A DNA stretch of 64,000 nucleotides, taken from assembly GCA_013388985.1 (NCBI GenBank), contig JACAEF010000005.1:62001-126000 (forward strand). Direction: 5' to 3'. This document shows positions 26,961-31,464 of the stretch, piece after piece (positions within the stretch are counted from its first letter, which is position 1; every line of letters starts with the position of its first letter). Source of the DNA: Rhodocyclaceae bacterium. Its GTDB lineage: Bacteria > Pseudomonadota > Gammaproteobacteria > Burkholderiales > Rhodocyclaceae. The notes beneath the pieces are model-generated. The model saw nothing but the letters and a program-made list of their open reading frames with translations, did no database searches and had not been told where the DNA came from. Both the position numbers and the translations under genes were made by a program.

Positions 26961-26986
26961 AAACTCGGCGCTGGCGGAACGGCACT
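26961..26986 (+). repeat. Dispersed repeat, copy 6 (forward, intergenic)
   Basis: AAACTCGGCGCTGGCG, GA, ACGGCACT. It occupies essentially the whole 27-bp gap between the convergent dnaB and PhoH genes, overlapping the latter's stop by 2 bp. Confidence 0.85.
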
Positions 26987-28424
26987 ACAGCACTTCGGCG
27001 GCGTGGTCGGCGAGCCGCGAACGCTCGCCGCGCTGCAGGGTGATGTGGCCGGCGTGCGGCCAGCCCTTGAAGCGGTCGACGACGTAGGTGAGACCCGACG
27101 AGCCTTCGGTGAGATAGGGCGTATCGATCTGCGCGATGTTGCCGAGGCAGACCACCTTGGTGCCGGGACCGGCGCGCGTGATCAGCGTCTTCATCTGCTT
27201 CGGCGTCAGGTTCTGCGCCTCGTCGATGATCAGGAACTTGTTCAGGAAGGTGCGGCCGCGCATGAAGTTCAAGGACTTGATCTTGATGCGGCTCCTGATC
27301 AGGTCCATCGTCGCGGCGCGTCCCCAATCGCCGGCATAGCCGCCCTTGTCGCCTTCATCGACCGGCTTGTTGAGCACGTCGAGATTGTCTTCGAGCGCGC
27401 CCATCCACGGCGTCATCTTCTCTTCCTCGGTGCCGGGCAGAAAGCCGATGTCCTCGCCGACCGGCACGGTGACGCGCGTGATGATGATCTCGGAAAAGCG
27501 CTTCTGTTCCAGCGTCTGCGTCAGCGCCGCGGCCAGCGTCAAGAGCGTCTTGCCGGTGCCGGCCTGCCCCAAGAGCGTGACGAAGTCGATGTCCGGATGC
27601 ATCAAGAGGTTGAGCGCGAAGTTCTGCTCGCGGTTTCTGGCCACGATGCCCCACACCGCGTTCTTGCCGTGCGAGTAGTCGATCAGGGTTTCCAGTTCCA
27701 CGGTCTTGCCCGAGCGGGCGCGCACCCAGGCCTGCAGCGGCTGTGGACCTTCCTGCCAGACGAATTCGTTGATCAGCAGGTCGGCGCTGAGCGGCCCGCT
27801 GATGCGGTAATAGGTGCGGCCGTCCTTTTTCCACGATTCCAGGCCCTGCGCGTGGGTTTCCCAGAAGTCGGCGGGCAGTTCGAGGCTGCCGGTGTAGAGC
27901 AGGTCGGTGTCTTCCAGCACCTTGTCGTTGAAATAGTCCTGCGCTTCGAGGCCCAGCGCGCGGGCCTTGATGCGCATGTTGATGTCCTTGGTGACCAGGA
28001 TCACCGGGCGTTTCGGATGTTTCTGGCGCAGGTGCAGCGCGACGGCGATGATCTGGTTGTCGGCGCGCGAGGTCGGCAATGAAGCGGGCAAGAGGCCGTT
28101 GATCGCCTCGGTCTGCAGGAACAGCCGGCCGCTCGCCAGGCCGCGCGACGGTCCGGCGAGCTCGATGCCCTCCTGGATGTCCTCCTCGCTGCCGGTGACG
28201 ATCTCGTCCAGCATGCGGCTTGCCTGGCGCGCATTGCGCGCCACTTCCGACATGCCTTTTTTGTTGGCGTCGAGCTCTTCCAGCGTCATCATCGGCACGA
28301 ACAAGTCGTGTTCCTCGAAACGGAACAGACAGGTCGGATCGTGCATCAGCACGTTGGTATCGAGCACGAACAACTTGGTCGGCTTGGCGGAGCGGGTATG
28401 CTTGGCAGCGTGTTTGGCGTTCAT
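26985..28424 (-). CDS. PIN-PhoH family ATPase
   Basis: 479-aa fusion of an N-terminal PIN ribonuclease-like domain (about 15-150; LFVLDTNVLMHDP, TLEELDANKKG) with a C-terminal PhoH ATPase (Walker A GQAGTGKTLLTLAA, Walker B FLIIDEAQNLTPKQMK). This PhoH2-type architecture is thought to combine RNA unwinding and cleavage. It is cytosolic, with no signal peptide. The bcp gene lies 25 bp upstream on the same strand. Confidence 0.93.
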   Translation of the reverse strand: MNAKHAAKHTRSAKPTKLFVLDTNVLMHDPTCLFRFEEHDLFVPMMTLEELDANKKGMSEVARNARQASRMLDEIVTGSEEDIQEGIELAGPSRGLASGRLFLQTEAINGLLPASLPTSRADNQIIAVALHLRQKHPKRPVILVTKDINMRIKARALGLEAQDYFNDKVLEDTDLLYTGSLELPADFWETHAQGLESWKKDGRTYYRISGPLSADLLINEFVWQEGPQPLQAWVRARSGKTVELETLIDYSHGKNAVWGIVARNREQNFALNLLMHPDIDFVTLLGQAGTGKTLLTLAAALTQTLEQKRFSEIIITRVTVPVGEDIGFLPGTEEEKMTPWMGALEDNLDVLNKPVDEGDKGGYAGDWGRAATMDLIRSRIKIKSLNFMRGRTFLNKFLIIDEAQNLTPKQMKTLITRAGPGTKVVCLGNIAQIDTPYLTEGSSGLTYVVDRFKGWPHAGHITLQRGERSRLADHAAEVL

Positions 28425-28449: not shown

Positions 28450-28932
28450 TCAGAGCGATTTCACGGCGTCGAGCACGGCTGCCGCATGACCATCCGCCTT
28501 CACGCCGCGCCATTCCCGGACCAGGCGGCCGGCGGAATCGATCAGGAAGGTGCTGCGCTCGATGCCGCGCACCTGTTTGCCGTAGAGATTTTTCATTTTG
28601 ATGACACCGAACAACTGGCAGGCCGTCTCTTCGGCGTCGGAGAGCAGCTCGAAGGGTAGCCCCAGCTTGGCCTTGAAGTTCTCGTGCGACTTCAGGCCGT
28701 CGCGGGAGATGCCCCAGACCGTGGCGCCGTTGGCGACGAATTCGCCGTGGAGATCGCGGAACTGGCCGGCCTCGGTGGTGCAGCCCGGCGTGCTGTCCTT
28801 CGGGTAGAAATAGAGCACGACGGACTGGCCGCGCAGATCGGCGAGGCGAAAGATCTGGCCGCCGGTGGCCGGCAGAGTGAAATCGGGCACTTGCTGGCCA
28901 ACGCGCAGCGCAGAGGCGGGAGCTTCGTTCAT
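28450..28932 (-). CDS. bcp: Thioredoxin-dependent peroxiredoxin (Bcp/PrxQ)
   Basis: Reduces hydroperoxides. 160 aa. The peroxidatic cysteine is in PKDSTPGCTTEAGQF. The resolving cysteine that PrxQ-type enzymes have five residues later is a glycine here, so it may work as a 1-Cys enzyme or use a different partner cysteine; one other cysteine is in ETACQLFG. The start overlaps the stop of the deacetylase-like gene as ATGA. Confidence 0.93.
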   Translation of the reverse strand: MNEAPASALRVGQQVPDFTLPATGGQIFRLADLRGQSVVLYFYPKDSTPGCTTEAGQFRDLHGEFVANGATVWGISRDGLKSHENFKAKLGLPFELLSDAEETACQLFGVIKMKNLYGKQVRGIERSTFLIDSAGRLVREWRGVKADGHAAAVLDAVKSL

Positions 28933-29747
28933 GCCGGGGTTCTCCAGTGAGAGAGGAATTCATCCCCTTGAAGCAGCAGGGGACGGGGATGGCCAGGGAC
29001 CGTGCCGATGACGATTTCATGGCGCGGTAGCCGCTCGATGCCGACTTCCGCCGCCAGCGCCTCGAGCGAAACGATCCGGTAGCCTTGCTCGCGCCAGCCG
29101 GCGAGCAGGCGCTCGAACTGCCCAGGCGCCTTGCCGAGCGCGCGGCTGGCCGTGAGGTTGAAGACATGGCCGGTGCGGGGAGGCGTGGCGGTCAGCGCCA
29201 GCAGGTCCTCGACCGCCGCCGCCTCGTCCTTGCCGGCCGCGGCAGTCAACTCGTCGAAGGTCGGCAGGGTGACGGGAAGCTGCGGGCAGCGCACGATCTC
29301 GCCGTTCCAGACGGGAATGAAGGGGTGACGGCCGCGGCTGTCGCTGGCGCAGGCGAAGCCGAGGCGCTGCGTCAGGCGCAGCGCATGCGGATTGCCCTGC
29401 CAGCCGGGAGCCGCCGTGAGTCGCGGCGCGCTGCCGAAGACCTTTTCGAACGCCGCGCATGAAAGCTCGTATTGCCGGGCGATCCAGCCGGCGGGCGCCG
29501 CGCTGGCGCGTTTGCTCCACTGCGCCGGCTGCCAGCCGAAAATACCGCTCTCGAAGCCGGCGGCGCGCACCTGTTCGAGCAGGCTGCGGGCATGGCGTGC
29601 CGGCGAGCGGCCGAGCCAGTCGTTACCCAGCCCGAACAGGAAGCTCGCGCCTGCTCCCTGGTTTCGCAGCAGATCGGTGAGCACCGGCAGCGCGGCGCAG
29701 GCGCGGTAAGCGGGAACCTCGATACGCAGCGCGATCGCGGGCCTCAT
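28929..29747 (-). CDS. ArnD-like polysaccharide deacetylase homologue, metal site lost
   Basis: 272 aa, similar along its length to ArnD-type deacetylases (SRGRHPFIPVWNGEIVRCPQLPVTLPTFDEL, APGWQGNPHAL). In that NodB-fold family the metal is held by an Asp pair at the N-terminus and a His-x-x-x-His motif. Here the corresponding segments read RIEVPAYR (8-15) and GIFGWQPAQW (68-77), with no Asp pair and no histidines. I infer a catalytically dead or re-purposed protein. ATGA overlaps at both ends place it between the Mth938-like gene and bcp in one operon. Confidence 0.8.
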   Translation of the reverse strand: MRPAIALRIEVPAYRACAALPVLTDLLRNQGAGASFLFGLGNDWLGRSPARHARSLLEQVRAAGFESGIFGWQPAQWSKRASAAPAGWIARQYELSCAAFEKVFGSAPRLTAAPGWQGNPHALRLTQRLGFACASDSRGRHPFIPVWNGEIVRCPQLPVTLPTFDELTAAAGKDEAAAVEDLLALTATPPRTGHVFNLTASRALGKAPGQFERLLAGWREQGYRIVSLEALAAEVGIERLPRHEIVIGTVPGHPRPLLLQGDEFLSHWRTPA

Positions 29748-30127
29748 GCGGCGTCTTTTTCGAGGATCAGCGCGGCCAGCGGCAGGCGCCCCTCGCCGAC
29801 GAGGAGGTTGTAGGTGCGGCAGGCGGCCGCCGTATCCATGATCTCGAAGCCGCGTCCGGCCTCGACCAGCGGACGCATCAGCTCGGCGGCTGGAAAGCGC
29901 TGCCGGCGTCCGGTGCCGAGCAGTACCACGTCGCAGGAAAAGGCGGCGAGCTGCTGCAGATGGAGAAGGCTCAGATCGGCAAAAGCGTCCGGTCCCCATT
30001 GTGCATCGAGGCGATCGGGCAGCAACAGCAGGCTGCGCGTGTGCACACGGCCACCCACCGCGATCGAATCGTGGGTGTAGGCGGTGACGATGTTGTCGCT
30101 ACTGCGCGGGTCGGGATGAAGCTTCAA
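29744..30127 (-). CDS. Mth938-like domain protein
   Basis: 127 aa, matching the Mth938/NDUFAF3-like (DUF498) family. Typical features are VTAYTHDSIAVGGRVHTRSLLLLPD, VVLLGTGRRQRFP and the C-terminal RTYNLLVGEGRLPLAALIL. Function in bacteria is unknown; eukaryotic relatives assist complex I assembly. It is the first gene of the four-gene minus-strand operon ending in the PIN-PhoH gene. Confidence 0.88.
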   Translation of the reverse strand: MKLHPDPRSSDNIVTAYTHDSIAVGGRVHTRSLLLLPDRLDAQWGPDAFADLSLLHLQQLAAFSCDVVLLGTGRRQRFPAAELMRPLVEAGRGFEIMDTAAACRTYNLLVGEGRLPLAALILEKDAA

Positions 30128-30237: not shown

Positions 30238-31464
30238 ATGCAGCCCATCCTCAAATCCACCAAGCTCGCCAATGTTTGCTATGACATTCGTGGTCCGGTC
30301 CTGGCACGGGCCCGGCAGATGGAAGAGGAGGGGCATCGCGTCATCAAGCTCAACATCGGCAACCCGGCCGCCTTCGGCTTCGAGGCGCCGGAGGAGATCG
30401 TCGTCGATGTGATCCGCAACATCCGCGATGCCTCGGGCTATTCCGACTCGAAAGGCCTGTTCTCCGCCCGCAAGGCGGTGATGCACTACTGCCAGCAGAA
30501 GAAGATTCCGGGCGTGACGATCGACGACATCACGCTCGGCAATGGCGTCTCGGAGTTGATCGTGATGGCGATGCAGGGGTTGCTCAACAACGGCGACGAG
30601 GTGCTGGTGCCGGCGCCGGACTATCCGCTGTGGACCGCAGCGGTGAGCCTCTCCGGCGGCACGCCGCGCCATTACCTGTGCGACGAGGGCGCCGGCTGGC
30701 TGCCCGACCTCGCCGACATCCGCGCCAAGATCACGAAGGCGACGCGCGCGATCGTCGTCATCAATCCGAACAATCCGACCGGCGCGCTCTATCCCGACGA
30801 CCTGCTCCAGGGCATCGTCGAGATCGCCCGCCAGCACGAGCTGATCGTCTTCGCCGACGAGATTTACGACAAGGTCCTCTATGACGGCCGCAAGCACACG
30901 TCGATCGCCAGCCTGGCCGACGACGTGCTGTTCATCACCTTCAACGGCCTGTCGAAGAACTATCGCGCCTGCGGTTTCCGCGCCGGCTGGATGATCGTCT
31001 CCGGCGAGAAGCGCCATGCCACCGACTACATCGAAGGCCTGAACATCCTCGCCTCGATGCGCCTATGCTCGAACGTGCCGGGCCAGCACGCGATCCAGAC
31101 CGCGCTGGGCGGCTATCAGAGCATCGAGGACCTGGTCGCGCCGCAGGGGCGGCTGTGCAAGCAGCGCGATCTCGCCTGGGAGATGCTCTCGGCGATCCCC
31201 GGCGTGTCCTGCGTGCGTCCCCAGGCGGCGCTCTACTGCTTCCCGCGGCTCGATCCGAAGATGTATCCGATCAGCAACGACCAGCAATTCATCCTCGAAC
31301 TGCTCGAGGAGGAAAAGGTCCTGCTGGTGCAGGGCAGCGGCTTCAACTGGCCCAATCCCGATCATTTCCGCGTCGTCTTCCTGCCCAACGTCGATGATCT
31401 CGCCGAGGCGATCGGCCGCATCGCGCGGTTCCTGGAAAGCTATCGCAAGCATCACGGCAGCTGA
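30238..31464 (+). CDS. alaA: Alanine aminotransferase AlaA-like
   Basis: PLP-dependent class I aminotransferase, 408 aa, closely resembling glutamate-pyruvate aminotransferase AlaA (KSTKLANVCYDIRGPVL at the N-terminus). The PLP lysine is in FNGLSKNYRACGFRAGW; NPNNPTGALY and ADEIYDKVLYDG are the cofactor segments. It heads a cluster with hom and thrC. An ATTATAAC -10-like element sits at 30203-30210 without a clear -35. Confidence 0.92.
   Translation: MQPILKSTKLANVCYDIRGPVLARARQMEEEGHRVIKLNIGNPAAFGFEAPEEIVVDVIRNIRDASGYSDSKGLFSARKAVMHYCQQKKIPGVTIDDITLGNGVSELIVMAMQGLLNNGDEVLVPAPDYPLWTAAVSLSGGTPRHYLCDEGAGWLPDLADIRAKITKATRAIVVINPNNPTGALYPDDLLQGIVEIARQHELIVFADEIYDKVLYDGRKHTSIASLADDVLFITFNGLSKNYRACGFRAGWMIVSGEKRHATDYIEGLNILASMRLCSNVPGQHAIQTALGGYQSIEDLVAPQGRLCKQRDLAWEMLSAIPGVSCVRPQAALYCFPRLDPKMYPISNDQQFILELLEEEKVLLVQGSGFNWPNPDHFRVVFLPNVDDLAEAIGRIARFLESYRKHHGS

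Follow-up and report, generated by a model that had tools for sequence, protein, structure and literature searches.

Loss of catalytic residues on the NodB barrel has been described before. The CE4-type protein BA3943 (PDB 7bkf) is titled a pseudoenzyme, and the Encephalitozoon CDA (2vyo) is called probably inactive (PMC10967932). The allantoinase PuuE (3cl6), which has the same barrel and lacks the usual metal residues, is described there as active and non-metal-dependent, with both MT1 aspartates and the second MT2 histidine absent and the MT4 aspartate and MT5 histidine kept; the same source also gives some of the residue roles in the NodB/CE4 family and describes ArnD as membrane-associated (PMC10967932). 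In Burkholderia cenocepacia, BCAL1935 (a predicted ArnD) and BCAL1936 (a homologue of a characterised peroxiredoxin) are stated to lie in one transcriptional unit, so the link between arnD and a peroxiredoxin also occurs elsewhere than at the locus described here (PMC5994716).

Here we describe ps-ArnD (P0001), a homologue of ArnD (the Und-P-4-deoxy-4-formamido-L-arabinose deformylase) encoded in a stretch of 64,000 nucleotides from a Rhodocyclaceae genome (the window). Like 7bkf and 2vyo, it has a NodB barrel with the catalytic residues lost; it differs from these CE4-type proteins, to which it is 12–15% identical, in belonging to the ArnD branch and in its link to a deleted biosynthetic operon. 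Inactive proteins of the CE4 type have thus been seen before, and what is new is the ArnD-branch variant linked to operon deletion. A literature search on ArnD next to a Burkholderia bcp-type peroxiredoxin gene gave no paper, and among the matches listed for ArnD in Rhodocyclaceae none looked related, judged on title and the start of the abstract.

An ArnD homologue with all five catalytic positions replaced

The ps-ArnD ORF occupies 28929..29747 on the minus strand (272 amino acids). A preliminary description of this DNA had placed it exactly there, leaving the strand unstated, and the two motifs it quoted, IEVPAY and FGWQPAQW, are present in the translated ORF. The tight operon that it proposed, with a Mth938-like gene and a peroxiredoxin, is borne out by 4-base ATGA overlaps on both sides, where the ps-ArnD start overlaps the stop of the DUF498/Mth938-like gene directly upstream (29744..30127, minus strand; Pfam PF04430, E 1e-27) and the ps-ArnD stop overlaps the start of the bcp peroxiredoxin gene directly downstream (28450..28932, minus strand; PF00578, E 3.7e-37). 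The same state is found in G017 (on one contig) and G002 (on three contigs), so it is no artefact of a single assembly. As checks, the description had put forward a structure prediction against ArnD, a search for an intact paralogue and a comparison of the altered pocket among relatives, all of which were carried out here.

Homology to ArnD is evident from matches to NCBIfam NF011923 (E 4.9e-27, although its 94.9 bits fall well short of the curated cut-off, 382) and to the sequence of Salmonella ArnD (StArnD, PDB 8t0j; HMMER E 9.3e-15). The general deacetylase profile PF01522 gave only E 0.019, under the Pfam cut-off. An AlphaFold2 model built from a 56-sequence alignment (pLDDT 94.6, pTM 0.92) has 8t0j as its best solved match in Foldseek (E 8.5e-19), and 8t0j also tops the VIA-align comparison of this predicted model (Z 31.9, rmsd 2.1, 251 residues, 25% identity), followed among other neighbours by PuuE 3cl6 (Z 21.0) and by 7bkf and 2vyo (Z 19.0 and 19.6).

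In the HMMER alignment to 8t0j, StArnD D9, D11, H106 and H110 align with E10, P12, F70 and P74 of ps-ArnD, and the family alignment places T199 opposite H233. Following the NodB/CE4 family, we take D9 and D11 to be the MT1 base and metal aspartate, H106 and H110 the MT2 metal histidine pair, and H233 the MT5 histidine. None of the five positions of the Asp/His/His metal site and the catalytic Asp and His is kept. The earlier statement that all metal-binding residues are missing was correct, and the loss is wider still, with the MT1 base aspartate changed to glutamate and the MT5 histidine to threonine; the first four losses were visible to the earlier reader, and the fifth (H233 to T199) is added here. 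ps-ArnD thus resembles StArnD in being homologous over nearly its full length, in its predicted fold and in occupying the same place in the locus as arnD in the operons of relatives, but differs in its five replaced catalytic positions, in the absence of a segment of about 37 residues and in a genome in which no substrate pathway was found. Judged on sequence, it belongs to the ArnD family through its ancestry, but its defining residues and its pathway are not those of an ArnD enzyme.

The absent segment is carried by operon ArnDs after a GPDHTGR motif and would follow residue ~48 of ps-ArnD. In a model of an intact relative (L041), this region is the least confident part, with block means of 60 (51–60) and 56 (61–70). 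It is probably the membrane-facing part of ArnD, and ps-ArnD is probably soluble. Across the genus, copies differ in what has been lost. All five positions are replaced in G000, G017, G002, G013, G016 and G018. The copies of G004, G012, G007, G014 and G009 keep the segment and have the metal aspartate replaced by proline or alanine and the MT5 histidine by arginine, whereas those of G015, G008 and G010 lack the segment and keep the first aspartate and first histidine, as does that of G003, with different gap borders. Segment loss with similar borders (DWLGR) occurs in L066–L068 and in L060–L065, groups that the tree splits within the genus, so the segment was deleted twice or the shortened form passed from one species to another. 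A separate altered group of nine (L089, L136, L139, L140, L142, L145, L148, L149 and L150) keeps both MT1 aspartates, except in L142, together with the first MT2 histidine, and has arginine at the second and MT5 histidine positions; from these residues, its members might still bind metal.

To describe what is conserved, we compared 88 columns that are ≥97% conserved in 89 intact ArnDs with 15 altered copies from the genus and 24 others, leaving out L186 and, among the altered rows, L054, L090, L095, L144 and L092. The catalytic columns vary, while 23 of the 88 columns stay near-invariant in the 89 intact and 39 altered sequences alike, including (in query numbers) D43, W77, W116, D136, R138, Q156, P158, T160, L161, P162, E166, W218, L240 and P241; these sites may be purely structural. 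Forty columns are lost in one or both altered sets, among them the metal aspartate, the second histidine and the MT5 histidine, and 25 are intermediate. Replacement often runs to arginine, which stands at the second histidine in 17 of the 24 non-genus copies and at the MT5 histidine in 17 of 24 and in 8 of the 15 genus copies. By parsimony on the careful tree described below, first departures from the MT5 histidine lead to arginine about 6.3 times and to glutamine 0.3 times, and about 3.8 of 6.5 departures from the second metal histidine lead to arginine and 2.6 to serine, threonine, alanine or glycine. Because His-to-Arg is a single transition in GC-rich DNA, mutation bias may account for part of this trend.

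Loss of the arn operon around ps-ArnD

In relatives with an intact ArnD (for example, L077, L083 and L086), the locus reads DUF498-arnT-arnE-arnB-arnC-arnA formyltransferase-arnA decarboxylase-arnD-bcp-phoH, with the same flanks as in the window. Synteny puts the place of the arnT-to-arnA (decarboxylase) block at the junction 29744..29747. The right flank of the ancestral locus is a gene for a PhoH-like protein with a PIN domain (26985..28424, minus strand), and the left flank is an aminotransferase-like ORF (30238..31464, plus strand), presumably AlaC. Neither the window's genome nor its congeners have the biosynthetic block at the locus. We infer that ps-ArnD is all that is left of an arn operon otherwise deleted, the main point that the earlier reader missed.

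The remaining locus varies among congeners. It reads DUF498-ArnE-psArnD-Bcp in G013, G016, G007 and G009, and DUF498-psArnD-Bcp in the window's genome and other congeners; ps-ArnD is absent from G011 and G001 (DUF498-ArnE-Bcp) and from G005 (DUF498-Bcp). As its neighbours are present without it in these three, ps-ArnD is dispensable. In G011 (L208 4492-5757) and G001 (L209 3947-5212), the small ArnE-like transporter between DUF498 and Bcp is about 70% identical to operon ArnE, and there is neither an ArnD copy nor an ArnA match. We also considered ArnE as an obligate partner of ps-ArnD, ArnE lying beside 11 of 37 altered copies, and rejected it because each occurs without the other: ArnE alone in G011 and G001, ps-ArnD alone in the window's genome.

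Searches of the window's genome extend the picture beyond the locus. Used as a query, ps-ArnD matched only itself at E ≤ 10, and an ArnD profile found no second copy at E ≤ 1e-10. Of the L-Ara4N substrate pathway, no match was found to the ArnA decarboxylase (E ≤ 1e-30; also E ≤ 1e-60), ArnC (E ≤ 1e-60) or the C-terminal part of ArnT (E ≤ 1e-5), nor was ArnE matched (E ≤ 1e-15). PF01522 gave other deacetylase-type matches on contigs C46 and C90, which ps-ArnD did not match at E ≤ 10; in a stretch of 20,000 bases from each contig (L098, L099), tblastn gave only two weak, 22%-identity matches to the decarboxylase query on C46 and none on C90.

We then placed these observations in a survey of 199 genomes of the family (ArnD-like matches at E ≤ 1e-10; ArnA decarboxylase and ArnC at E ≤ 1e-60). 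ArnD-like matches were found in 91 genomes, the ArnA decarboxylase in 69 and ArnC in 72, two of the ArnC matches (G080, G173) being merely 39% identical. ArnD and ArnA occur together in 67 genomes, and in every one of them an ArnD match is found on ArnA's contig within about 3.5 kb. All 65 complete ArnA-linked ArnDs retain five of five catalytic residues; the remaining pair (G209, G225), truncated where their contigs stop, are intact in the visible part. By contrast, 23 of the 24 genomes with ArnD and no ArnA carry an altered copy, the exception being G216. All five residues are intact with no ArnA decarboxylase match in G216 (L130 6379-7293) and, outside the family, in G048 (L082), perhaps owing to recent operon loss or another substrate. 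No ArnD-like match was found in 106 of the 130 ArnA-less genomes, so loss of ArnD is the usual fate and retention that of a minority; some of the 106 are incomplete assemblies, as may be a few that hold single arn genes (for example, G034, G171 and G201).

The position of the altered copies is constant. For all 37 family copies examined, DUF498 is the next gene upstream, apart from an intervening ArnE in the 11 cases noted above, and Bcp follows in 24. ArnT, ArnB, ArnC and ArnA were not matched beside any of the 37 at E ≤ 1e-6 in the stretch examined, which for some is a short contig. Five altered copies outside the family (L054, L087, L090, L092 and L095) have no DUF498 match. Five arn-positive genomes have a second ArnD copy at the DUF498 locus, altered in G174, G145, G232 and G209 and intact in G118. 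G014 is the single one of the 19 genus members in which the ArnA decarboxylase was matched: it carries an altered ArnD at the DUF498 locus (L097, C20) and a complete arn operon with intact ArnD on C191 (L073). As this assembly has ~560 contigs and 6% contamination, that operon may be foreign DNA.

Origins of the altered copies and selection on them

Origins were counted on a careful 91-row tree, built after removing the catalytic columns and variable segment, with the altered group defined by residue state. On this tree the altered label changes 8 times (bootstrap 5–95% range 7–8), and starred branches force at least 4 changes. A single origin occurred in 0% of 200 bootstrap trees, and a one-clade constraint cost 136.9 log-likelihood units (p_AU 0.000196). 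When long-branch rows were included, a quick tree placed 37 of the 44 altered rows together (SH-aLRT 94, unstarred), so long-branch effects may play a part. From the quick tree we had dropped duplicates (L036/L037 of L063/L066; L045 of L130) and cut-short rows (L050, L084, L151, L152 and L187) and thinned intact rows from 94 to 54; the careful tree additionally omits the divergent or long-branch rows L186, L095, L144, L057, L090, L054 and L092. The ArnD catalytic site seems to have been lost repeatedly in related bacteria, in about 7–8 changes. Comparing operon loss with site loss across starred branches, with operon labels set by hand, gave 5 pairs: a mean of 2.8 agreed with the association, 0 opposed it and 2.2 were ties (sign test, median p 0.25); the association rests on about three informative independent pairs.

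The altered genes remain open and constrained. A ps-ArnD copy is present in 15 of the 19 genus genomes, and none of the 15 reading frames has an in-frame stop; stops flagged in G015, G008 and G010 were the normal stop codons of frames open to the end. Among the closest pairs around the window's genome, dN/dS (YN00) is 0.22 (G000/G017), 0.19 (G000/G002) and 0.16 (G017/G002), and four further close genus pairs fall at 0.16–0.22; NG86 gives 0.17–0.31 over the same seven pairs and 0.12–0.38 for four more distant ones. Eleven pairs from other altered lineages show 0.12–0.42 (NG86) and, in the 7 pairs computable with YN00, 0.04–0.19. Ten intact ArnD pairs lie at 0.06–0.22 (NG86). Constraint on ps-ArnD is therefore genuine, though less strict than that on intact ArnD. 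In the same genus pairs, DUF498 and Bcp mostly have lower dN/dS, and PhoH and the aminotransferase much lower (close pairs). ps-ArnD thus combines lost catalytic residues with a protein kept under selection, as in a NodB/ArnD pseudoenzyme. The earlier suggestion of a pseudo-deacetylase that is probably expressed is supported by the five catalytic losses, the intact ORFs, the purifying selection and the overlapping operon.

What may keep ps-ArnD in the genome

We consider it probable that ps-ArnD is the relic arnD of a deleted L-Ara4N operon, kept by purifying selection for a non-catalytic job, likely the binding of a ligand or partner. The other genes of this lipid A modification operon, whose enzymes decorate the outer membrane with a protective amino sugar, would have been deleted in the ancestry of the genus, with arnD surviving; with no Und-P-Ara4FN left to deformylate, the metal site, the catalytic base, the catalytic histidine and the segment of about 37 residues would have been lost, and the folded NodB-type barrel would have been retained under purifying selection within the DUF498-psArnD-bcp operon. 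A ligand or partner could then be bound without catalysis, in the cleft of the barrel or at a conserved surface (D136/R138, Q156-P158-T160-L161-P162-E166, W77, W116 and W218). Against this reading we count the dispensability of the gene, its absence from most ArnA-less genomes, the intact sites of G216 and G048, and a selection that is less strict than that acting on the Bcp and PhoH genes of these genomes or in most pairs of intact ArnDs. The preliminary description had proposed binding of lipid-linked sugars. That idea is weakened, because the segment is lost and so is the pathway that supplies the lipid-linked substrate known for ArnD; binding of Und-P-Ara4FN is unlikely in the window's genome, where none of its searched makers was found, and binding of another ligand is compatible with the data.

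Other readings explain parts of this evidence. ArnD might have had a second, non-catalytic job that outlived the L-Ara4N pathway, the site being dismantled in ~7–8 lineages and the protein kept, a reading we hold to be possible but doubtful. From the residues, arginine at the second and MT5 histidine positions would let the former metal site bind an anion, of which phosphate and carboxylate ligands are examples; even this arginine was replaced later in the window's lineage. It is unlikely that the gene is a slowly decaying relic, its frame kept through translational coupling to bcp and its folding, not its function, selected. The ATGA overlaps on either side, the absence of an ArnD-like gene from most ArnA-less lineages and sequence change exceeding that of the neighbours are as such a relic would have them, but absence of the gene is tolerated between the same neighbours in G011, G001 and G005, the amino acids are constrained in several separate lineages (dN/dS of about 0.2), and no Bcp match follows 13 of the 37 altered copies, of which one lies where its contig ends. 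A passive translated spacer before bcp is possible and fits poorly with the amino-acid constraint and the gene-less congeners. Nor is a single ancient duplication, with a pseudo-ArnD family inherited alongside ArnD and no repeated loss, a likely history, given the 8 changes on the careful tree, the lack of one origin in any bootstrap tree and an AU p of 0.0002; L132/L143, L085 and the nine sequences around L089/L150 moreover sit in starred clades with intact ArnDs. The one syntenic place common to all 37 altered family copies and the unstarred grouping in the quick tree speak in its favour.

We regard as improbable a metal-independent enzyme whose pocket was rebuilt for another substrate, as in PuuE on the same fold. 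PuuE is among the fold neighbours of ps-ArnD, and D136 of the SDxRG motif, taken as MT4, is invariant in altered copies. However, PuuE is said to keep the MT5 histidine together with the MT4 aspartate (PMC10967932), and ps-ArnD has T199 at MT5; that histidine is gone in 15 of 15 genus copies (arginine in 8, threonine in 3, single others), the first MT2 histidine is gone in 6 of 15, and the old catalytic positions vary among close species, unlike a new active site. A role as ligand-binding regulator or partner of an active paralogue, the earlier reader's idea, is very improbable. An altered copy does coexist with an ArnA-linked copy elsewhere in G174, G145 and G232 (intact) and in G209 (split, intact as far as seen), but the protein and ArnD-profile searches give no second ArnD in the window's genome, which also lacks matches to the ArnA decarboxylase, ArnC, ArnE and ArnT, and no second ArnD, ArnA decarboxylase or ArnC match was found in G017 or G002; for the window's genome, the idea is refuted except for an active partner that shares no sequence relationship.

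A relic arnD retained for binding, the reading we prefer, bears on how dead enzymes persist. Pseudoenzymes are mostly found singly, whereas ArnD, at one fixed place, appears to lose its site repeatedly after pathway loss. Because intact, partly altered and fully dead versions coexist, the question of what keeps a dead enzyme alive becomes testable by comparison. For environmental Betaproteobacteria, an 'ArnD' annotation does not equate to aminoarabinose modification of lipid A.
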